Positions 12,822 to 48,351 of a stretch of 64,000 bases of DNA are shown here, one piece after another. Under the pieces are notes generated by a model. That model ran no database searches and was not told the origin of the DNA. It worked only from the letters and a program-made list of their open reading frames with translations. Numbering within the stretch: position 1 is the first letter of the stretch; each line of letters begins with the position of its first letter. This stretch comes from Capsaspora owczarzaki ATCC 30864 (taxonomy: Eukaryota; Opisthokonta; Filasterea), in assembly GCF_000151315.2 (NCBI RefSeq), contig NW_011887299.1:650894-714893 (forward strand), read 5' to 3'. The position numbers were made by a program, and so were the translations under genes.

Positions 12822-14688
12822 CTACGAAAAGTCGCGATTGGACAAGACCATGGGTGCAATCAGCGTCCAGAAGTACAGGACCAACACGCCCCAGCTGGAG
12901 CCCATCTTGGCCCAGACAGCCGCGGTCGACTGGCTGATGACAAAGCCGTTGTTGCCGCTCGAAATGTCATTCCACCCGGTCAGCACCTCAGCCATGTACA
13001 TGGCGGCAAGAGCAAAGCAGAGGTGGAAGGCAAAGTAGCTGTAGTTGACGCCGCCGCTTTCATCGTCATCGTCAGCGCCATCATCGCCCTGAGCGGCACG
13101 ACCAGATTTGTCGCCTTGCTCGGCAATGATGGCCGAGTTGCTGGAGGAAGGCACGTGCGTCATTTCAGAACTAGAGCCCGAGGAGCTCCCAGTGTGAACA
13201 GCGGCGTAGGCGACTGAAATAAACGTCAGAATAAAGCCAATGACGACAGCGACGTTCTGCGTCGAGTCGGTGGAGGTGAGCGAGTTGCAGGGATAGTCGC
13301 TCTCGGGCTCGCTCGAGACGGCGCTCCACACAAGGTAGGTCGAGTACAATGTGACCACGGACGACTGCAAGAGTCCCGACTTTGGGTTGTGCTCCTGCAC
13401 CTTGCCCGAGATGGACACGAGCGTCAGGACGATGCACACCAGAAAGTTGAACGTCACAAAGAACGTGTTGATGCGGCACGACGAGTCGCCAGGCAAAAAG
13501 TACGTCCACATGATCACAGTCAGCGCAAAGGCGGTGCCGTTGAACAGGAAGGTGAGTCCGATGAGAAGAACAAACCAGATGCGCGCCTGAGTGTCCTGGA
13601 ACTTGGCAACGAGCTTGTCGTTGAGCGAGTGGGCAAAGTCCACGAGCAGGACGAGCTGGATGAGGATGAACACAATCGCACCCGCCATGCTGGGGTACTG
13701 GAACTGCTCAATGTTGCTGCCCGGAATGAAAAAGCAGCCAATGATGGAGCCGAGCCAGAGCGCCAGCTTGAGCGGCCACCAGCTGTTTTGGATGGATGCG
13801 CGAGGGTCGCTGCTCGAGGAGACGCCATACATGATCAGCGCCATGAATGTGTGGAAGAGTACGAGGCCCAGACAGACCCGATACACTGCTACCGTGCCGT
13901 AACAGGAAGGGTCGTTGTCGTTGCAACCAAAATCGAGGTAGCTGGGCGCAGTGCTCTGCATCTTGTCCTCTGCCCACGACGAGCTCAGAATCCACGCCGC
14001 AATCGAGGCCGTCAAGAACATGATTGCGTATGTAACGCGCGTGCCGACCGAGCGGCTGACCAATCTGCAAAGTGCAAAAAAAGTATTGTAGTGAGTTGCA
14101 AAACAAGAAGCACGACGCAGTGCGTTGGGACAACATACCAAACAATAATTTCTGTTTTGTTTTTGTTTATAAAAATATCTCAACATGAGCTCTGAGTAAC
14201 TTCTCAACGTCTCAGAAAACGGGTCGGTCTCACTTTCCTCTTTTCCCCTCAGCCTGCGTCCTTGCTTTCCAGAGCAACTCGCCGTCGCTTTTACACACAG
14301 ATGCGCTCCGCATTGCAAGCCAGACGAGTTCAACAACAAAAGCGACACTCTCAATGGTAGGAAAGCAGATGGCTCGCGTTTTGGTGACGCCATCGTCGAA
14401 CACGTACAAAAACGCTTCAAGCAAACCGTACCAGACGCCCCAACGTCCTCATCCCCAGCGGCCAATGCGCAAAGCAAAGCCCCAAGCACAGACACCCAAA
14501 CAGCCAAAGGGTGGGAAGTTGGTCGAGAGTCGGTGGTTCCTCATGGAGCTCAGTCGCGGCTGCGAACGATACAGTCCCGCCAAATGCTGTCTCAATGGAC
14601 TAGCGTTGCTTTACCCGCAGCAGCTCGTCAGGGCACGGCAGGCACAGCACGCAGCCATTTCACCCGCACAACAGATCAGCGAAGCCAT
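12822..14688 (-). CDS. SERINC: Serine incorporator (SERINC/TDE1 family) membrane protein
   Basis: Two exons, 14688-14615 and 14064-12822, join in frame to 438 residues, the usual SERINC length. Exon 1 encodes the hallmark Cys-rich start MASLICCAGEMAACCACRA, which splices to LVSRSVGTRVTYAIMF. Eleven or so hydrophobic segments follow, with family motifs such as VYRVCLG, the WWPLK stretch, FFIPG, TYLVWSAVSSEP and the C-terminal WTLIAPMVLSNRDF. SERINCs are multi-pass scramblase-like proteins of ER, Golgi and plasma membrane, linked to serine and phospholipid handling. A longer open frame upstream of exon 2 runs through the intron and is not the real N-terminus. The acidic loop (GDDGADDDDESGG) before the last helices is poorly conserved, as in other members. 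Confidence 0.95.
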
Positions 14689-16573: not shown

Positions 16574-16921
16574 GTGATATCCATTTTGCCGGAAGTTTTG
16601 ATGTTTTTTGTCGATCGTCTCAAAGTTCAACAGAGCTTTTTTTTCATTTTTGCAGTTGAATTGTTTTCGTTTTGTTGCTTGGGGTTTTCAACTGGACGCT
16701 CACTTTAGCAAAATTTGTCAGTGAATGTTTCACAACGGGGACTTTGAGAGACCTTTTCCTGAAGTCGGTGGATGATTTTCAGTGGAAGAGGTGATGAATG
16801 CTTTGAGACGAATTTCAACAGCGCAATCAATCCAACGCAAAACCAATTCCCATTCGCTTGGTCGTGCAGTGTTTGTTTGTTTGTTTAGTCTTTTTATTAT
16901 CTTGTCTGAGAGTTGAAGCAA
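16574..16921 (+). promoter_or_regulatory. Upstream region of NOP53
   Basis: This is T-rich intergenic sequence between the RAB24 stop and the NOP53 ATG at 16922, with a short TTTG repeat at about 16872-16888. No gene is supported. Confidence 0.4.
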
Positions 16922-19161
16922 ATGGTCAAAGCAAAGGCACCACCAGCACCAGCAGCAGCACCAGCACCAGCAGCAGCGCCTGAGCAGCCCAAGCGCAAGC
17001 GAGTGAGCAAGGCCGGCACCAAGAACATGCGCAAGAACATCCCGACGACCGAGTTTGACGACTACATCGAGACCATCCGTCACGACGAGCGCACGGGTGG
17101 CGCGATGGCTGAGCGGGACGACGCGGCGCTGTTCATGATTGATCGCGTGGCGACGCGCTCCAAGGCGGCCGCCAACAACAACGGCAAGACCGCCGCCGCC
17201 GTCAAGACCAGTCTCAGGCAAACCAGATCCGCAAAGATGTCGACGGGTGACGACAGTGAGGATGGGGCTGAGAGCGGCGAGGACGAGCCGGAAGAGGAGG
17301 AGCTCCAGCCAAAGCCTCGTGGCTCCCATGTGGATGGCCGATCAGCGTCGAAGGCGACCAAGGCGAAGGCGTCCGCGACCGCAGCCAAGCCAGCTGCCGG
17401 CACAAGCAAGAAGACCACTGCTGCGTCCAAAGCGGCGGCGGCGGCGGCAGAAGCAGCTGTGGCAATGGAAGTGGAGGAGGAAGAGGCTGAAGCAGAGCAG
17501 CCGCGCGCACTGATGATCGCTGTCGGTGGTCCGCCCAAGCGCACCCCGCGCCAGTCGCACGTCGACAAGGTGATTGCAGGCAACCAGTTCATCAAGGCGG
17601 TGGCGGGCGGTCGTGCTGCTCCCACGCGGAAACTGCGCGAAGTCAAGCTCAAGACGGCCAGGCCCAGCGGCAACGAATCCGATTCCGATGTCGGCGAGGA
17701 CTACTCGCACCCAGTCACAAAGTCGCTCGCGATTGCGGCCAAGAAGGACGCCTTTGTGCCGCCACCACCAGTCATTGGCCACCAGGTGGCCGGGTTTGAC
17801 TTGTGGTCGACTCCAGCGCTGAGTACCAGCGTCACAGACAACGTGCAAGCCCCGCCAGTCCCATGGAACAAGAAGGGCTTCACCTCAGACTATGTGCAGG
17901 CGACGCTGCCCGTGCCCAAGCGTATTCCAGTCACGATGCGTCAGGCGCCATCGGCGCTGCCGGCTGTGATGGCCGCGCATCCCGGTCAATCGTACAATCC
18001 CGACCAGGACGATCACGCTGACGCGCTCACCATTGCTGCTGCAGCAGAAGTCGCCAGGTTGGCTGAAGCCGAGCGCATCAAAAACCGCCTCAAGCCGTAC
18101 GTGTCCTCGGGCGCCAAAAAGAACGGCAAGGCCAACTACAAGTGGGAGGACGAGGTCCAGGATGCCTTCAACATCAACGGCACCCTTGTCGGTGGATGGA
18201 GCGACGATCGCGTTATGGACACCCCCTCCCTTGCTGCCAAGGACAGCCAGGCGTCCAAGAAGAATGCAGCGGCCCAGGCCAAGAGCGGGGCTGTGACTCA
18301 GGGCCTGAGCACGTCCGTGCCGATGGCGGTCGCACCAAAACAGTTAGCAGCTTCCAAGCAAACAGCTTCAGCAATATCCGCGTTCGTCGTGCAAGTAGTC
18401 GACGACGCTGATACTTCCGCAATGGACACTAACGACGCACAATCAGACGAGGAGAGCGAAGACGAGGACGAGGAAGACGAGGAAGACGAGGAAGACGAGG
18501 ACGAGGAAGACGAGGAAGACGATTCTGCCCCCTACCGCTCGGCCAACCCTGCCACTACCGATGACGCCCGCAAGACCAAGACCCAACGCAACCGCGAGCG
18601 ACGAGAGCGCGAGCGCGTGCGAGCGGCTGCCGACGCCAAGAAGGCGCGTGGTGTTCAGCAAGACATTTACCGTGCCAAGAGTATTGCGCAGGAGGTTGAG
18701 CGCGAGTTGGACGAGATTGAGGATCGCGCCGACGAGAAGGCCGCCGTGCAGGAGGCCACCGAGCCCTACGCGACCAAGCGTCTTGGCCGCAAGGCGTTCG
18801 TCGAGGAGCCCATGCAAGTCAAGCTCAGGCACGAGCTTCCCGACACGCTCCGTTCGCTGGTCCAAGAGGGCAATCTTCTCAAGGACCGCTTCCTTAGTCT
18901 GCAGCGACGCAACATGGTTGAAGCTCGCGATCGCGTCGCGTACGTTACTTGGCAGTTTCTGTGTTGTTTGTTGCGTGATGTTGTTCAGGTTCAGGTTTTG
19001 CTCATGGTTTTACATTCGTGCTTTTTTTTTCTTTGACACACAGACCCAAGCGTCGTTATAAGCTCAAGAATTACCGAACAGGTTCTCAAAAGAAGTTTGA
19101 TCATCAATTCGAGGCCAAGCTCAAGGTCGAGGCCAAGAAGCACGCGTCCGCGCGATCGTGA
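16922..19161 (+). CDS. NOP53: Ribosome biogenesis protein NOP53 (GLTSCR2/PICT1)
   Basis: Two exons, 16922-18939 and 19044-19161, give 711 residues. The N-terminal block KNMRKNIPTTEFDDYIE...ERTGG and the C-terminal block (FVEEPMQVKLRHELPDTLR, GNLLKDRFLSLQRRNMVEAR, then PKRRYKLKNYRTGSQKKFD) are the two conserved NOP53 regions. NOP53 is a nucleolar 60S assembly factor that recruits the exosome helicase Mtr4 for 5.8S/ITS2 processing. The middle is enlarged by Ala/Lys-rich sequence, an acidic run of Glu/Asp at about 18449-18523 and a basic Arg/Glu coiled segment. An arch-interaction-like motif could not be fixed by eye. The start is the first ATG; upstream in-frame sequence lacks one. Confidence 0.92.
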
Positions 19162-26713: not shown

Positions 26714-28115
26714 CTACTGTGCCGTATTCTCCAAGTTCGACAATGCTCGCATGACGAAGAACGCCACCCAGAATATTATCAATACCTCGTCGTAAGAATC
26801 GAGAAGCAAATCGCACCACCAGGTGTGCCCGCAGAGCGTCTTCATATCGAAGGGATCCCAAATATGCAAGACTGTAAAAATAAACACAATGACCATCAAC
26901 GTCTCGGAGCCCGAACTTGGCTGGGATCGCTGCGAGCGGTTTTCGGGTGCTGGGGAGAAATGGCCTTCGTAGTTTCTGTCCATGTTGGCATTGTTATTGA
27001 CCAGCGAGTTTGGTGATGGGAAGACGGGTCCGGTTGACGAAAGGAGCTAAAACGCAAAGTAGAGCAAAATGTCAGCAAAAAAATCGGTCTCGATGGAGTT
27101 GAGCAATTCTCTCTCGTATGGCAAGCATGCAACTGGCAGTGACCGACCTGTTCTTGTGAAATGAGAGGCGAGAGTTGCGATGCTCTCTCTGGATTGGCTT
27201 CAATGTACGCATCCACGACGCGACGCAGCGAGTAGGACGGATGGATGGAGGTAACGGGTGTCCGGCAGATTGGGCAGCGTCGTTGATTGGGTTCCACTTG
27301 TTGTAGCTGCGTTGAGATGCAACTTGCTACGATCGTGAACAAAACAACACAAGGCAAACAATCCAGGCTCAGCGAACATGTTGAAAACATCCACACAACA
27401 CAAAAAGCAACAAAGGTGCAAAAAGCCGCTTACCACAGAAACTGTGACCACATGAAAGATCCGTTGCACTTCGAAATAGGCTCTGTTTACCAAACAGACG
27501 CAACGCAACACCACACCAGGATGATGAGTGAAATTGCACTTGGAACTTGAGTGACTTGGATTGAGCGTTTTGAAGCTCCGATAGCTTGTTGCCACTGTAT
27601 CTAAGCGCATCTCGCGGCTTCGTTTTGTGTGATGATCGCCTTACCATGCATATTGGGCACTCGAGATGCGACTCGCTCAATTGCTGGCTGTTTGTTCTTG
27701 GAGGTGGAGCAGCAGCAGCAGCATCGGCATTGGCATTGGCAGCAGGACGCCGACGCTCATCATTTCCATCATCATTGTCATCATGATCATGATTATTATC
27801 ACTATTGTTGTCTGGGGCGCGTTGGTCGTCCCATGCAGAAGACGTGCTTGTGCTTGCCGTGGCTGGGTTTCGGGCGTTACTAGTGCTGTTCACGCGTCGA
27901 GCACCGGACTCGGCGGCTGCGTCACTGAACGGCGATGATGATGATAATGATGATGATGATGATAATGGTAGCGATGGTCGTGATGGTGGGACGCGGGGAG
28001 TGAGCGAAGCCGCATTGTCAGCGGACGACGTGTCTGATCCAGAACGACCGCGCAATGCAGTAGTCGACGCTGAGCTGGCAACGTCGTCGTCAGACTGCTG
28101 GTCGGCAGCCATCAT
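26714..28115 (-). CDS. Membrane-anchored C3HC4 RING E3 ubiquitin ligase
   Basis: Four exons (28115-27645, 27482-27434, 27326-27148, 27046-26714) give 343 residues. The N-terminal 150 residues are disordered and rich in Ser, Asp, Asn and Ala. The RING finger is assembled across exons 1-3: CPIC, then CGHSFCASC, then CPIC, giving all eight zinc ligands in C3HC4 order. Exon 2 is a 49-nt micro-exon carrying the central zinc ligands. After a Ser/Pro linker the C-terminal 90 residues contain one or two hydrophobic segments (LMVIVFIFTVLHIWDPF and VLIIFWVAFFVMRAL), likely membrane anchors. The protein is probably an ER or endomembrane E3, but no orthologue can be named with confidence. Confidence 0.85.
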
Positions 28116-28458: not shown

Positions 28459-31400
28459 TCAATTGGCAAGCGATTCGTAATCACCGCTGGCAGCAGACGA
28501 CGGTGCTCCGGCTATCGTCGAGTACGTGGTGGCTGGGGTCGAGTTCGCCACACGAACAGTCGAAGGGCTTGGCAGTGAAGGATCGGCATACTCGACAGAA
28601 GCATGTTGGGCATCAATGGGCTCGCTGTACGTTGATTCGGCATACGGGTTGGAGGCAGCAGCAGTTCCCAGTTCATTCAGGCTCACCTCGCCAGACACTG
28701 CAGACACAGATGCATAGGTGGCGTCTAACGGACCCTCGGCCGTGCTAATCACCGTTGCGTAGGTTGTGCTGGTGGAGGCGGGCGCGTGGGAGCGGATTGT
28801 GGATGCAGCCGCCGATGTCTCAGCGTACACGAGTCCTGCGGAACCAGCCGGAGCTCGCGTGGCCGTTCCGACCTCTTCGTACAAGCCTTGATTCGCTTTC
28901 TCGGCAATGACCTCATAGGTCGGGTTGAGCATGGTCGTTGCTGGCAAGCTTGCATGATGGACAGGATCCGATTCAGTCGGCCCCTTGAGGAGCGTGCCGG
29001 CACCATCGGAGGTTGCCTTTGATACGTGACGGCGTCGCAGAGCCACAACTAGGACCAGCAGCAACAGAAGAGCCAAGCCGACAACGACGCCAACGATGAT
29101 TGGCAACGATGAAGCGGCATCGCTGCTGTTGTTCGGTCTGTGAGAGGCTGCCGACGCTGCGGATGTCTGCCACGCGGACGAAGCGGTTGCGGCAGATGCA
29201 GATGCACGAGACTCGATCGACGCAAGAGATGCCGACGAGGCGGATGCCGCAAGGGCAGAGACTGCAGACGCTTCGGAGGCAATCGATGCCGCGATCGTAG
29301 AAGCAACACTAGCAGACGCATCAGAGGCAATCGACGCCACCGATGCAGTTGCGATCGATGCGGACAAAGCAAAAGTGGCTGAAGCAAGCGACGCATCAGA
29401 TGCAACAGACGCATCAGATGCAACAGACGCGACAGACGCATCAGATGCAATAGACGCAACAGACGCGACAGACGCATCAGACGCAACAGACGCATCAGAC
29501 ACAACAGACACAACAGACGCAACGGACGCAGAAGCGGTGGATGCCGCCGAAGCAGACAAGGCGGATGTGACTGAAACAAGCGACGCGACAGATGCCGATG
29601 CGGTTGACGCAACCGACGCAATTGAAGCGTCTGAGGCGTTCGTGCTCGCCGACGCAACACAGTATCCACTCGCCATTTCATAACCGTCATAGCACTGAGT
29701 GCATGCATCGACCGAGCTGCAGGTCAGACAATTCGCTCCACAGCACGAGCTGTTTCCGGCGGCGTAGCAGGTGGCACAGGCTGTGTCGCACTCTACGGAG
29801 AAAAAAAAGATGTCAGTGAAATACAGTAGAGCCAAGAGGGAACAAACAAACACAACCACCAAAACCACCAAAAGCAAAGGCAAAACAACCGACAACCACT
29901 GTAGCTTACGGAATGGCTGGGTCGCAGTACCATAAGTGCTTGGCGGAGCAACAGTGTTTTCAGCAAAGCTAAAGTTGTTCGGCGCGAGTTTAGCGTTGGA
30001 GCTACTGAGGATGAGACCGTTTTTCAAGCCCTTGAACAAGCCAGGCGGCAGGGTTGTCATCGGATTCGCATTCAAAGGCCTGAGTCCTTCGCGTTAGAAT
30101 TCACACAGCATTGACGTACACTTTACAACAAGCGCTCTTGCATACAGGGAGGTCAGAGTAGTCATGGCAGTGAAAGCGTTGGGCGGAAGACTTGTGATCT
30201 GATTCTCATTCAACGTTCTAGTCACTCGTGCCACGAGTGAGATACTTGTGACAACTCCTATTGACGTCAGATCTTTTGCTTACAAGATCCGAATAGCGGG
30301 AAGCCCTGTGAATCCAGCTCGTGGAATGCTCGCAATCTGGTTTCGCTCCAGGGTTCTGCCATGCGACGACTGAGCTCAGGTTCTTGATCCTTATTACAAC
30401 TCAACTTCAAGTGCGTACGTACAAGTAGGTCAGTGCCGTCAGCCCTTCGAAAGCACGGCCGGAAACGCTCGTGATTGCATTGTTGTTAAGGAATCTAACA
30501 AAACGCGCACTGGATGAGGTCCCAGTACATGTCCGAGTGGTCATATCATCTTACAAACGAAATAGCTCTTTACAACGTCAGCAGCGAAGTCAGTCCTGGG
30601 AACGCATTGGCGGAAATACTGGTGATCTGGTTAATGTTGAAGGTGCTAGGATGTCGTTGTCGACGATTGAGCCGTTGTTCTTTCTGCCACCAGCGTCAGA
30701 TGAATTTCTTACAGGTGTTGTAGACTTGTGAGTCCGATGAAGGCATCCGCTGGAACGCTGGTCAGGCGATTGCTGTTCACCTGCCTGAATATGCAAGTTG
30801 TCGCGCAACAGGATGAGCTCGCATTCGGGTCTCCCAAGACAAAAGGATGAATGGCTCACAGTTTTGTCAGTGCAGTTAAGGTTGCAAAAGCACCAGGCAG
30901 AATGCTTGTGATTTGATTGCCGCCAACAGCCCTAGTCGTTGACAAACAAGTGAGCAAACCGTTCTTGTTTGTGTTCAAAGTACAACAACCATCGACACTG
31001 ACAGATCTGCCAACGCAACCATTCCAGCGAATGCGTTTGCCGAAATGCTGGTGATCAAATTGGAGGCCAGATTCCTAGGGACCGTGCGACACGTGAGATG
31101 CTTGCAAAAATCCCAAATTCTTCTCCAGGAAAGCAAGTGCGTACAGGTTGGAAAGCAAAGTCAGTCCCGCAAGTGCATCTGTAGGAATGCTGACCAGCTT
31201 GTTGTAGTGCATTATTCTGTAAACCGTGCGAAAGGTGAGCAGGCAAATCCTTGTTCCAAACAATACAACCTCTGCGACGTACATCTGAGTCAGCTGGCTC
31301 AGCCCGGCGAACGCGTCTGCGGCAATGCTAGTGATTTGGTTGTAGCTCACCGCACTGGACGCGAGTGAGTTTTCCAAGTCGTGTTCTATCATCCGCATGC

Positions 31401-31767
31401 TCCTTTTCTTACATGACTGCCAGCGCGGGTAGGTGAGCGAATGCGTTTGAGTCAAGGCTGGTGAGTAGGTTTCCGTAGAGAGATCTGGCAGTCGCGATCG
31501 AGGAGTGAGGTCCTCGACTCAAGCAATCTTTAGCAAAAAAAAGGGGGTTGGCAGTAGTGCGCATGGGTTCTGTCCTTACAAATATGTCGTGTTTGCAGGG
31601 ATGGCAGTTGGGATTGTTGTCAGACCCTTGTCTCCACAGGCAGCGGTCGTTCCTGTGCAGTCGCATATGTCTCCTGGACCACAAGGAACGGCCTGCGACC
31701 ACTCGACTTGCATTGTCATGAAGCATAGCACCAGCAACGGCAGCAGAGCGAAAGAGCGTGTCTTCAT
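28459..31767 (-). CDS. Single-pass LRR receptor with Ala/Ser/Asp stalk and multi-tyrosine tail
   Basis: From the ATG at 31767 the order is: signal peptide (MKTRSFALLPLLVLCFM...), a Cys-rich LRR N-cap (CGPGDICDCTGTTAACGDKGL), eleven LRRs, a Cys-rich module, a long Ala/Ser/Asp repeat stalk, one transmembrane helix and a cytoplasmic tail of about 200 residues. The LRRs are of the typical extracellular form (NQITSIxxxAFxGLxxLxxL), each in its own exon between about 31500 and 29910 and separated by short introns in the same phase. The Cys module (ECDTACATCY...CYDGYEMASGYC) begins at 29794. The helix reads IIVGVVVGLALLLLLVLVV, followed by RRRH. The tail has ten tyrosines, including an NPTY PTB-type site and six YxxV/I/L sites, but no kinase domain. 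I infer a receptor or adhesion protein that signals by recruiting SH2/PTB proteins. I found no named orthologue. Confidence 0.85.
29150..29690 (-). repeat. Minisatellite coding the Ala/Ser/Asp receptor stalk
   Basis: Degenerate tandem units of 9-21 bp (GACGCATCAGATGCAACA-like on the plus strand) encode ASDASVAS-type repeats for about 180 residues in the LRR receptor. Unit order is most regular at 29390-29525. The product would be an extended, probably O-glycosylated stalk holding the LRRs off the membrane. Confidence 0.85.
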
Positions 31768-39223: not shown

Positions 39224-39520
39224 TAACGGCGATTGTCCGATGATCCTGCATGCTACGACTACCAAAAAACGAAACGTGTGTTGATATTTTTTTTACTGCT
39301 TTGTATTTTCTGCTTCTTTTCAGTGGTGGGTGCTTGTTTCTTCTTCTGAGCATCTGCTTTTGTACAAAACAAATTCTAAGAAAAGGAAACAATAATGAAC
39401 AGAACACAATCACGCAGTCTTCTTGATTCACTCGCTGCAATAGATCAAGCTCGAGTGATTTTATTCGACCACTCCCATCTCCCCATCTCCCTTCACAAAA
39501 TATCTCAGACACTGAGCACA
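39224..39520 (+). promoter_or_regulatory. Intergenic region between TBC and MFS genes
   Basis: T-rich then A-rich DNA with no supported gene. It carries the MFS promoter. Confidence 0.35.
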
Positions 39521-41092
39521 ATGGGTGTGGCGGCCATCTTAACGGATTTGCGTCCGCCACGCCGCCTGGTGCTCCCGTTCAGCTGCGGGACGCTCCTGCT
39601 GCTATGCATGGGCACCATCTACTCGTTCGGCGTGCTCGGCGTGCGCATCAAGTCGCGCCTGGAGCTGACCGAGCCCGAGATCACGGCCATCCAGACTGCG
39701 GGCCTGCTCGGGATGTACTTTGGCGTGACGTCGGGCCTGTTCTTTGACCGCTTTGGCCCGCGCCTGACCTGCCTGGTCTCTGCTGCAATCGCCAGCGGAT
39801 GCTACCTTGTGACGTACGCGAGCCTCGCGGGGACGTTCTGGGCGCCCACGGATACGCCGTACGAGCTGCTCGTCGCCCTCTTCTTTGGCATCGGACAGGC
39901 CTCCCACGGCTTTTACACGGCCGCGATGGCTGTCAATCTGCGCTGGTTGCCGTTCCACATCCGGGCCAAGGCGACCGGCGTGCTCGCGGCGTGCGTCGGG
40001 CTCTCGTCCGGCATCTTCACCCTCATCTACGAGGCGTTCAACGAGGCCAACAGCTACTACATTTTCGTCGCGGGCGCCTATACGTTCGTGGGTATCATTG
40101 GTGCAATATTCCTCAAGTTCCCTCCGTCGAGTGGCGACGGAGCAGCTGCTGCGCATTCGTCAACGTCGGCTGGCACGACTGAAATTGCCATGACACCACC
40201 AAAGCGGCAGCGATCGTCGCGGCGGTCGGCAAAGTACGCTCGCCTTCAAGAGGAGGAAGAAGCAGATGAAGACGACGACGACGAAGACCACGATGATGCT
40301 CAAGCAGAGAAGGAAGAAGCCGCCGCCGCCGCCGCCGACGACGACGAAGGCCAGAACGCACCTTCTGTCGACGAGGAGAGTCACAAGCAGCTCGCACAGC
40401 TCGCACAGACAGACCCGAATCTCGACATTACCGGCAAGCGCTTGCTGCTCAATTCAAACTTTTGGATTTTGTTTTTCGTCATGGCAATGCAAGATGGTGC
40501 TGGTGCCATGTTTATCAACAAGCTCGGCTCGATTATTGCGACAGAGCCAGACTGTGGCTGCAACAAGAGCACGCTCACGGTCGCGTTTGCCATTGCGAAC
40601 GCATGTGGTCGCATCTTCTGGGGCTCTGTTGCCGATGCCTACCGACGGGTCCTGTCGCCCGTTTTGGTACTGCTCCTCACGGTGGCCGGAATGGGTGGTG
40701 CAATGGTCTTTGTTGCAGCATTCCCAGCGCAGCTGGCGTTGGCGTCCATCATTGTAGCGCTGTGCTTTGGCGGCCTCATGGCGCTGGGCCCCGTCATTGT
40801 CGGCGAGCTGTTTGGCTTCAAGCATTTCGGTACCAACTGGGGAATGACAGTCTTGTCGCCTGCCGCGGGTACGATTCTGTTCAGCATCATGTACAGCCAA
40901 ATTTACGTGTCGCAGATTGCCGATCCCACCCAAACCAACTGCTACGGTGTCGCTTGCTTCCGGCTGTCCTTCATTCTGGCGGCCTTGGCGTGTGCAGTTG
41001 CGACTGTCGTTTGCTACTGGCTTCACCGACGAACGTATGCCAATCCTGCCTGCGTCATTGCGACAGGTTCGCGATCAGGCGCCATGCATTGA
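39521..41092 (+). CDS. Nodulin-like major facilitator superfamily transporter
   Basis: A single exon encodes 523 residues from the ATG at 39521 (an ATG 126 bp upstream is in frame but adds an unconserved leader). Twelve hydrophobic segments are visible in two halves, split by an acidic and Ala-rich loop (residues about 240-285, nucleotides 40250-40350). Family marks include YSFGVLGVRIKSRLELTE in helix 1, the DRFGPR loop between helices 2 and 3, NKLGSIIATEP before helix 8, and GRIFWGSVAD. This pattern is that of the nodulin-like/OFA branch of MFS carriers, which includes monocarboxylate and other organic-anion transporters. The substrate cannot be told. It is convergent with NOC4, 114 bp away. 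Confidence 0.85.
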   Translation: MGVAAILTDLRPPRRLVLPFSCGTLLLLCMGTIYSFGVLGVRIKSRLELTEPEITAIQTAGLLGMYFGVTSGLFFDRFGPRLTCLVSAAIASGCYLVTYASLAGTFWAPTDTPYELLVALFFGIGQASHGFYTAAMAVNLRWLPFHIRAKATGVLAACVGLSSGIFTLIYEAFNEANSYYIFVAGAYTFVGIIGAIFLKFPPSSGDGAAAAHSSTSAGTTEIAMTPPKRQRSSRRSAKYARLQEEEEADEDDDDEDHDDAQAEKEEAAAAAADDDEGQNAPSVDEESHKQLAQLAQTDPNLDITGKRLLLNSNFWILFFVMAMQDGAGAMFINKLGSIIATEPDCGCNKSTLTVAFAIANACGRIFWGSVADAYRRVLSPVLVLLLTVAGMGGAMVFVAAFPAQLALASIIVALCFGGLMALGPVIVGELFGFKHFGTNWGMTVLSPAAGTILFSIMYSQIYVSQIADPTQTNCYGVACFRLSFILAALACAVATVVCYWLHRRTYANPACVIATGSRSGAMH

Positions 41093-46107: not shown

Positions 46108-48351
46108 TCACGGATCCAACGAAACAAGGATGCTACCAAAGGACGGGCGATCGTCTGCAGCGTCGTCAAGACACTCCATCGCAAGCATGACAAGCTCGCT
46201 GATGCTCTGGAGCTCTGTCTCGCTTGGTTTGAGGGCCGAGTCCAGCATCTCAACGAATTTCTGGGTTTTCACAGCCTTGCGCATATCAGTTTTCAGTCTG
46301 GGCCCGGGCTTGGCGGCGGTCGCGAGCTCGAGCAGAATCATGCCAAAGGCGAAGACGTCCGTCTTGATGGTCATTCTGCCCTCGGCAAAGAACTCGGGGC
46401 ACATGTAAGCAGCTGTGCCTTGAACGTTTTGAGTACGCAGGTAGCTTTTATCATCGAGGTGTTGAGCAGCTCGGACGAGACCGAAATCAGACACTTTTGC
46501 GTTAAAGTACGCGTCCAGCAGAACATTGTCCGTCTTGAGGTCGAGGTGGAACAGGGCATGGTCAGGAAAGGCCGTTTGGACGTAGTGCATGCCGCGGGCG
46601 ACATCGGCCGCGATCTTATGGCGCTGGGCCCAGGTCAGCGGAGGGGTGTTGTTCTTCAGATTCAAGCGATCGCGAACTGAACCATTCGGCATGAATTCGT
46701 AGACCAGGCATCGCTCGTCACCTTCCTCTGCATACGACAGAATCGCAATGATGTTTGCGTGACGGAATTTGGACAAAGAGTCCAGTTCCGACTTGAATGC
46801 AACCGTGCCCTGCTTGGATTCGGCAGACAACTTCTTGATGGCAACGCGAGGGCCAGGCAAACTGGCGTCGTACACGCGACCAAATGCTCCTTCTCCAAGC
46901 AGAGAATCAGCGGCAAAGTTGTTCGTGGCGGCGACAAGAGTTGCGAGAGGAACTTGTGGGATGGGTCCGTCAAAGTTCGACGCGGATCCAGCAGCGGGCT
47001 GATTGCGCTCAAGGACGTCAATCCGATCAAGAGCTGACTTCAGTTCTTGATCTTTGGCAGCGAGCGCCTGATCTTTGGCAGCGAGACTTGAGCGCAGTTG
47101 TTGCAACTCCTGCACTTTGGTTGCGAGCTCTTGGTCTTTGGTAGCGAGCTCTTGGTCTTTGGTCCCGAGCGCCTCATTTCTGGAAGCGAGCTCCTGAACT
47201 TTTGCAGCGAGGACTTGCTCTTTGGTAGCGAGTTCGGAGCGCAATTGCTGATTCTCAACTGCAAGATTGACAGAAGGTTGGGGCTGAGGGGTTGCTGCGA
47301 CACTGCCTGTCATCTGAACCGATGCGGCAGGTGGTGGAACTTTTTGGTTTTCCAAACTTCCATCGAAGAAGCCCAAGTTCACAAAAACCATGTGAGTGAC
47401 ATACCGTTCGACTTTGTTTCTTCATAACCGAATGCAATAAACAAATGGTCTTACTTGAATTTACAAATGGTATTGCCTGTTTGTCTGAGAGCAGAAATTC
47501 CGACGTGGGTCAAGAAGTTATCATTCAAACTGACGTGGCATGTTTGTTAGAGCAAATTGGCATACGAGTCGATCGATATTCAAAGCATCTTGCTGCACTC
47601 AGTATTTACCGAACGGACGTCAGGGTCTTGTTCACTTTGAGTGTCTCAGCAATCGCCAGCGCTCCAACGTCGCCAATCTGGTTCAGACTCAGACTTTTTT
47701 TTTTCTTAGTGAGCACGTTTCAATCCTCTGCTGGATCACACCCTGTCCCCCGCCTCACAAGCATCAGATATTGTGAGATGACGTACTCGAGCTTGGTTAT
47801 CGTCGTGTTCGCTTTGAGCGCCTCAGCAATCGCCTGCGCTCCAACGTCGCCAATCTGGTTGCGGTGAGCACTGTCCGTTCCCTCAGCAGTGAGTACTTAG
47901 AATGCCCTCTGCTGGCATCCCCCACTCTCACGCATCCACGTTGTGAGATGCCTTACTGGAATCCAGTAACCGACGTGGTTACCTTGAGTGCGTCAGCAAT
48001 CGCCTGCGCTCCCGCTTCTCCAATTTGGTTACAGCCCAGACTGTCCATCCCCTCCATCAGTGAAAGCTCTTCATGCTCGGCAGGACCGCCCACTCCCATG
48101 CGTTAGTCAAAGTGAGATGACTTACTGGACCTCATGCAATGCCGCATTCTCTTTGATTGCCACAGCAATTGCTTGAGCTTCAGGTATGCCCAGCTTATTG
48201 TGTTGCAGCCTGTCTTTCATTTGATCAGCCCACGCGTTGTCACACTGTTCCAACAAACTCGGGCTTGCCTTACGAGAGGAATCCATTCGTATACTTGACT
48301 TTGTCATACAGCTCGTACTGTTTCGGGGTCATCAAATGAGGCGACAGCATT
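46108..48351 (-). CDS. LRR (ribonuclease-inhibitor type) - coiled-coil - TKL kinase
   Basis: From ATG 48351 the protein begins MLSPHLMTPKQYELYDKVKY. It continues through about five RI-type LRRs, one per short exon (near 48180, 48040, 47860, 47690 and 47520), with the repeat NQIGDVGAQAIAEALKxNTTI. A long last exon (about 47390-46108) encodes a coiled coil with heptads TKDQELA/AKVQELA and then a complete kinase domain. That domain has LGEGAFGRVY, the Lys in VAIKKL, HLDLKTDN, DFG (VSDFGLVR) and GTAAYMCPEFF. The kinase resembles the TKL/Pelle-IRAK type. The catalytic HRD is HLD, making it a non-RD kinase, and APE is CPE. The splice joining the last LRR to the coiled coil is not certain. A cytoplasmic NLR-like sensor kinase is one reading, by inference only. 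Confidence 0.82.

Follow-up and report, generated by a model that had tools for sequence, protein, structure and literature searches.

Kinase-less leucine-rich repeat receptors of Capsaspora owczarzaki with conserved multi-tyrosine tails: candidate phosphotyrosine docking receptors

The 64,000-nucleotide stretch of the Capsaspora genome analysed here (the window; contig C8:650894-714893) encodes a predicted leucine-rich repeat (LRR) receptor whose short cytoplasmic tail carries ten tyrosines and ends without a kinase, which raises the question of what such a tail would be for and which enzyme would act on it. The original prediction, made from the letters of the DNA, was of a phosphotyrosine (pTyr) docking receptor dependent on a separate tyrosine kinase. 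The gene model, its relatives in the same genome, and the kinases and pTyr-binding domains encoded there each provide an opportunity to evaluate this reading.

The receptor gene and its family

The gene occupies positions 31767-28459 of the minus strand, and its spliced model predicts a protein of 803 aa. A signal peptide and N-terminal cap are followed by ten LRR exons, an exon that ends the LRR domain, and one last exon encoding a Cys-rich module, a Ser/Ala stalk, a transmembrane (TM) helix and the tail (Table 1). The start codon is inferred, as an ATG adjoining the hydrophobic stretch, with a further in-frame ATG upstream, and the junction of exons 12 and 13 is the least certain splice; the TM helix and tail were read in a minus-strand stop-to-stop frame (28459-30093). 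That the protein is an LRR receptor, as first proposed, is borne out by the ten 72-nt exons and by a match to Pfam LRR_8 (E = 1.1e-58). Only LRR families scored above the Pfam cut-off, and no Ig, lectin, TIR or 7TM part was found in that search. The best solved-structure relatives of the ectodomain include LGR4, the IGF-binding acid labile subunit, LRIG1, LRRTM and TLR3.

Table 1. Features of the receptor gene, in window positions
Feature	Position	Strand	Basis or remark
Exon 1: signal peptide and Cys-bearing N-terminal LRR cap, MKTRSFALLPLLVLCF...CGPGDICDCTG...	31580..31767	-	spliced model
Ten LRR exons	30146..31484	-	exon scan; each exactly 72 nt, phase-2 introns
LRR exons 1-5 of ten	31484-31413, 31354-31283, 31216-31145, 31074-31003, 30931-30860	-	
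LRR exons 6-10 of ten	30784-30713, 30645-30574, 30494-30423, 30355-30284, 30217-30146	-	
Exon 12: end of LRR domain	29910..30079	-	spliced model
Cys-rich module, CDTACATCYAAGNSSCCGANCLTCSSVDACTQCYDGYEMASGYCV	29656..29792	-	common to receptor tyrosine kinases of the Capsaspora genome
Ser/Ala/Val low-complexity extracellular stalk	29107..29655	-	SAWQTSAAS, the family signature, lies close to its end
Single transmembrane helix LPIIVGVVVGLALLLLLVLVVAL, then RRR	29038..29106	-	by eye
Kinase-less cytoplasmic tail, ten Tyr	28459..29037	-	RRR + 189 aa + stop
Tail Tyr codon starts	28915, 28879, 28825, 28759, 28714, 28642, 28627, 28588, 28522, 28477	-	

The single TM helix and ten-tyrosine tail anticipated within 28459-29110 are present on the minus strand. 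The expected scarcity of other aromatic residues is complete in this tail, which has zero Phe and zero Trp in the 189 aa after RRR, and every tyrosine context that had been quoted (LNPTYEVI, GLYEEV, TTYATV, ATYASV, TTYSTI and DYESL) is found, with Tyr codons between 28477 and 28917. The kinase-less character likewise holds: the final exon stops at 28459, and the window gene has no Pfam kinase match. A hidden kinase exon was ruled out, since the frame stops there and another same-strand frame follows ~350 bp on (by eye, its first ATG is near 28115), which is too little space for a kinase. This downstream frame looks RING-like by eye and has no Pfam match. Other neighbours in the window are ordinary, comprising Serinc (12822-14540, minus strand), Nop53 (16910-19036, plus) and an MFS/nodulin-like transporter (39380-41092, plus).

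A search for further LRR-TM-polytyrosine proteins, suggested with the original prediction, uncovered a large family in the same genome, and the window gene is one of its members rather than a lone odd protein. Across 27,456,641 bases, the window tail gave at least 114 matches and at least 36 distinct places at E<1e-4 (window included), a lower bound on family size given that the search scores only the best candidates. Among the matches listed, no kinase lay within 1.5 kb downstream of these 36 places. We read 37 tail frames, i.e. the 36 places and C12:728255 (E = 0.07), of which 34 were in frame (one, C12:424502, reaching the edge of the fetched sequence before its stop), two were frameshifted and one (C13:81263) had no TM helix in frame. 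The two apparently frameshifted tails, C13:859175 (L022) and C3:944416 (L024), may be pseudogenes, altered tails or assembly errors.

The 34 in-frame tails, of 84-212 aa with 4-13 tyrosines each, together amount to 5037 aa, among which are 279 Tyr, 23 Phe and 1 Trp. Position +3 is strongly biased: L, I, V, M or F follows at +3 in six of the ten tyrosines of the window tail (shuffle mean 1.6, P = 0.00125), and a hydrophobic +3 residue occurs at 170/276 tyrosines of the 34 tails, compared to 48.2 ± 6.1 in 2000 shuffles (maximum 72). The paralogues are related, so that the pooled tails are not independent, and the test was therefore repeated on low-identity representatives, giving 42/65 (11.4 expected) for eight tails below 50% identity and 31/46 (8.3 ± 2.6) for six tails below 40%. 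Proline at +3 shows a modest excess, with 41 sites compared to 27.3 ± 4.8 in shuffles (maximum 46), and acidic residues are overrepresented at –3, +1 and +2.

Among these tails, Yxx[VIL] occurs at 168 sites in 34/34, YxxP at 41 sites in 29/34, TxYxx[VI] at 42 sites in 32/34 (two sites in the window tail) and NPxY in 29/34. The related [SIVL]xYxx[VIL] is found in 17/34 tails and not in that of the window, and ITAM-like spacing, scored by regular expression, appears in 13/34 and is not general. Motifs that recur by eye are NPTYEAL, LYEDV, VYAEA, EYA[DN]P, TTYAT[IV] and a C-terminal DYASIAN. Even the divergent tail at C1:1651266 has all four of its tyrosines in YxxL (YDDL, YDTL, YDEL and YSEL), yet it also has four Phe.

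Tyrosine is the best-kept residue of the tail, conserved at 89% of aligned positions with Arg next at 60% (163 pairs, 60-97% identity). When Tyr was masked before alignment, 89.0% was still kept, compared to 42-57% for P, E, S, L, V and N masked in turn. Tyrosine codon comparisons comprised 877 identical, 253 synonymous and 139 non-synonymous cases. In the alignment of the 34 tails, Tyr makes up at least 80% of each of columns 68, 93, 113, 217, 274 and 347; the window tail places a tyrosine in every one of these, accounting for six of its ten. The tail tyrosines are evidently kept by selection. Homologues that fail to keep them had been named as the result that would speak against the docking reading, and the opposite was seen.

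Receptor tyrosine kinases with a related ectodomain

A composite-query search found the Cys-rich module at no fewer than 128 places in the genome; these are places rather than genes, as some genes have two. At at least 42 of the 128, a kinase among the matches listed lies downstream on the same strand at up to 4 kb, six of these places also having a weak tail match. A tail match (weak ones included) and no kinase among the matches listed characterizes 44 places, and the remaining 42 have neither a tail match nor a listed kinase; the latter may be secreted, other-tailed, or missed pieces. We fetched 24 receptor tyrosine kinase (RTK) loci, and 23 gave a frame (L046 gave none). In 22 of the 23, the Cys module is followed by stalk, TM helix, juxtamembrane and kinase, the exception being L052, which was mis-anchored by our script. 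The motif HRD[LI]AARN is present in 23/23, and the cytoplasmic juxtamembranes carry 1-9 Tyr. A kinase tblastn query against 70 loci matched 24/24 RTK loci and the CoSrc2 locus; its sole match among the tail loci was weak and on the opposite strand (L026), with L030-L041 having little downstream flank.

Among the RTK loci (L042-L065), the other kinase domains share 78-93% identity with that of L042 (51% for L045), and the ectodomains and juxtamembranes vary, a pattern that may reflect either a recent radiation of the kinase or its gene conversion. The window itself encodes a kinase frame with a coiled region at 46108-47421 (minus strand; PF07714, 3.3e-45). This candidate partner was set aside as TKL/IRAK- or RLK-like by eye, its HLDLKTDN catalytic loop being the reason that it was not taken as a tyrosine kinase.

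LRR exons also occur in both classes. Upstream 72-nt LRR exons are found in 20/20 large tail loci (L009-L028) and in three of the four RTK loci having upstream sequence (L045 is without), and reversed or complemented control sequences contained none. Each repeat corresponds to one 72-nt phase-2 exon (L009-L028, L042-L044), and the strict exon pattern matches 5 to 21 times per locus, some loci holding more than one gene. Repeat number could therefore shift as exons are gained, lost or skipped in frame. Passages of PMC3870316 describe an exon-skipping network in Capsaspora that is enriched in kinase genes. The 72-nt in-frame LRR exons would lend themselves as cassettes to such a network.

To ask whether kinase loss or kinase gain came first, a tree was built from 52 sequences of the Cys module, 30 of them from tail genes and 22 from kinase genes. 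It is poorly resolved, having 50 columns and at least two rows anchored on a different Cys repeat; 4/34 tail loci and 1/23 kinase frames were left out where the anchor motif was not found, as was L046, which has no frame. Tail and kinase labels are interleaved on this tree, with 14 label changes compared to a shuffled mean of 17.0 (44/500 shuffles as low), and the starred branches force at least three changes. One starred pair joins the tail gene C3:94685 with the RTK L049. Because the columns are too few, the 52 modules give interleaving but no direction, i.e. no order of kinase loss versus kinase gain. Separately, the stalk of the RTK L043 (C11:510300-515900) ends in SAWQTSAAS, a signature common in the kinase-less family, and this suggests recombination between the RTK and kinase-less classes.

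The genome may hold a paired repertoire, in which one diversifying LRR/Cys/stalk ectodomain has been joined interchangeably, via repeated recombination, to either a kinase or a poly-Tyr tail; we regard this as a tentative proposal, more doubtful than probable. If true, it would represent a system that took shape outside animals and pairs catalytic with substrate receptors, for the recognition of prey, host or self in aggregation.

Candidate readers and phosphorylation in trans

SH2 domains, which could read phosphorylated tails, and PTPs are encoded in the genome, with 34 exon matches to SH2 and 16 matches to PTP. Five SH2 loci were fetched, and three were searched and named. An SHP2-like SH2-SH2-PTP gene is present (SH2 pair versus SHP2, E = 8.4e-89), as are a Grb2-type SH2 (E = 2.9e-30) and a Crk-type SH2 (E = 1e-26). 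The SHP2-like gene lies at locus L066 (C13:292000-295000) and is a clear example of its type in a unicellular holozoan. SH2 preferences differ: YxxP suits Crk, YxN suits Grb2, YEEI and more generally Y[DE][DE][VIL] suit Src-type domains, and ITIM/ITSM motifs such as TxYxx[V/I] suit the tandem SH2 of SHP2. The 24-residue CoSrc2 peptide printed in PMC6001378, with a leading Met, matches 25/25 at C11:495106-495180, which identifies the genome as that of Capsaspora owczarzaki; the best SH2 match falls in the same open frame.

PTB-type readers are sparse. There was one marginal match to PID (PF00640, E = 0.0027), no genomic match to tensin-type PTB (PF08416) with a profile run without a positive control, and three matches to IRS-type PTB (PF02174), the best being talin (1.9e-153). 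The proposed NPxY-PTB branch is therefore the weakest part of the original prediction, in that NPxY sites are common in the tails but classical PTB domains hardly appeared in our searches. Its description of the system as independent of animal ones can apply at most to the receptor, because the proteins likely to read the tails are related to SHP2, Grb2, Crk, Src and talin of animals.

Read from sequence, these receptors combine an LRR/Cys/stalk ectodomain, one TM helix and no kinase with nearly Tyr-only aromatics, Tyr conservation and a +3 bias, and RTKs of the same genome share the Cys module, stalk and TM helix (and LRR exons where checked). At the level of sequence there is good support for the reading as a pTyr docking receptor that would need a separate kinase: the tyrosines are strongly conserved across an expanded family and lie in SH2-type contexts, and the genome encodes tyrosine kinases, SH2 domains and PTPs. 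The kinase partner would indeed be separate, as foreseen, but it may be a close relative, given that RTKs sharing this Cys module, stalk and TM helix, and having LRR exons where checked, are encoded too. We consider it probable that the Capsaspora single-pass LRR receptors use their tails as multi-site pTyr docking platforms, phosphorylated in trans and read by SH2 proteins.

Specifically, ligand or cell contact would cluster the kinase-less receptors with LRR-RTKs (or Src-type kinases), and the co-clustered kinases would phosphorylate the tail in trans. The resulting pTyr sites would recruit different SH2 proteins by motif, i.e. Crk at YxxP, Src-type SH2 at Y[DE][DE][VIL] and SHP2 at TxYxx[V/I], and a PTB-type domain, for example talin F3, could dock at NPxY. 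It is the shared ectodomain parts that point to RTKs as candidate kinases acting in trans. Proline at +3 is modestly above shuffles, and the putative Crk-type class therefore draws on column conservation rather than counts. The kinase-less family offers candidate substrates for the many RTKs of Capsaspora, and the model is testable in an organism that is transfectable and editable (according to passages of PMC6001378).

Other explanations of the tails were considered alongside docking. YxxPhi and NPxY double as clathrin-adaptor sorting signals, which depend on Tyr and need no kinase. The tails might accordingly belong to endocytic or phagocytic receptors for ligand or prey uptake, with tyrosines serving mainly as unphosphorylated YxxPhi (AP-2) and NPxY signals. 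The 168 Yxx[VIL] sites in 34/34 tails and the NPxY in 29/34 are in keeping with such a role; one or two sites are enough for sorting, however, and the tails have 4-13 tyrosines, among them the non-AP-2 motifs YxxP (41 sites, 29/34 tails) and the conserved VYAEA site, with an acidic enrichment at –3, +1 and +2 that fits kinase and SH2 sites. We judge a mainly endocytic function improbable; some tail motifs may be used in endocytosis alongside docking.

It is unlikely, to a slightly lesser degree, that the tails act mainly as inhibitory partners, recruiting SHP2 via ITIM/ITSM-like motifs and damping the LRR-RTKs that share their ectodomain parts, much as the inhibitory members do among the paired receptors of animals. 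The SHP2-like gene, TxYxx[VI] in 32/34 tails (42 sites) and the interleaving of tail-gene and RTK Cys modules are all consistent with this, but YxxP, Y[DE][DE][VIL] and NPxY in the same tails point to adaptor or activating readers; SHP2 binding is a prediction, and inhibition would in any case be a special case of docking. Incidental tyrosines, arising by chance or low-complexity drift in a Ser/Ala/Thr/Pro-biased tail, are barely credible: the tail and stalk are of low complexity and the whole tail evolves fairly fast (median dN/dS 0.41, 163 pairs), yet Tyr is its best-conserved residue, Tyr codon changes are mostly synonymous (253 versus 139), Phe and Trp are rare, and the +3 bias lies far outside shuffles. 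Chance composition was ruled out by the shuffles together with the Tyr-masked alignment.

Comparison with known systems

Our literature search found no description of kinase-less poly-Tyr LRR receptors in Capsaspora. The novelty of the family is provisional, because that search missed the kinome and phosphoproteome papers on this organism and the comparison covered Capsaspora alone among filastereans. The closest counterparts are the LRR-RTKs of the same genome, which are alike in Cys module, Ser/Ala stalk, TM helix and a cytoplasmic juxtamembrane bearing Tyr and, in three of four loci, in 72-nt LRR exons. The RTKs have an HRD[LI]AARN kinase, whereas the window family ends in a distinct tail with its own conserved motifs. 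The window receptor is no RTK: a kinase was looked for and is absent. Its ectodomain and single TM helix are of the type that RTKs of this organism have.

Among animal proteins, LRRTM, LRIG1, LGR4 and TLR3 also have an LRR solenoid on the outside of the cell and, at its N terminus, a Cys-bearing cap, but the Cys module, stalk and tail of the window gene differ from theirs, and TIR, Ig and 7TM parts were not found. Animal receptor signalling widely relies on receptors that have no kinase of their own, use that of another protein and recruit SH2 proteins. A large conserved family of this layout in a filasterean, with ectodomain parts in common with the RTKs of the same cell, suggests that a unicellular holozoan either had this strategy or evolved it separately. 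PD-1, SIRP, PECAM, LAT and p130Cas are tails or scaffolds that lack a kinase and in which SH2 proteins read several YxxL/V/I or YxxP sites. Unlike animal immunoreceptors, the window family has no Ig or lectin ectodomain and carries 4-13 sites of mixed class, and the likeness is one of layout, homology not being implied by any match here. Like the animal ITIM/ITSM/ITAM receptors and pTyr docking proteins, the family is kinase-less and has several YxxL/V/I or YxxP sites, and with several conserved tyrosines in SH2-type contexts the window receptor is, as judged from its sequence, laid out like a pTyr docking receptor.
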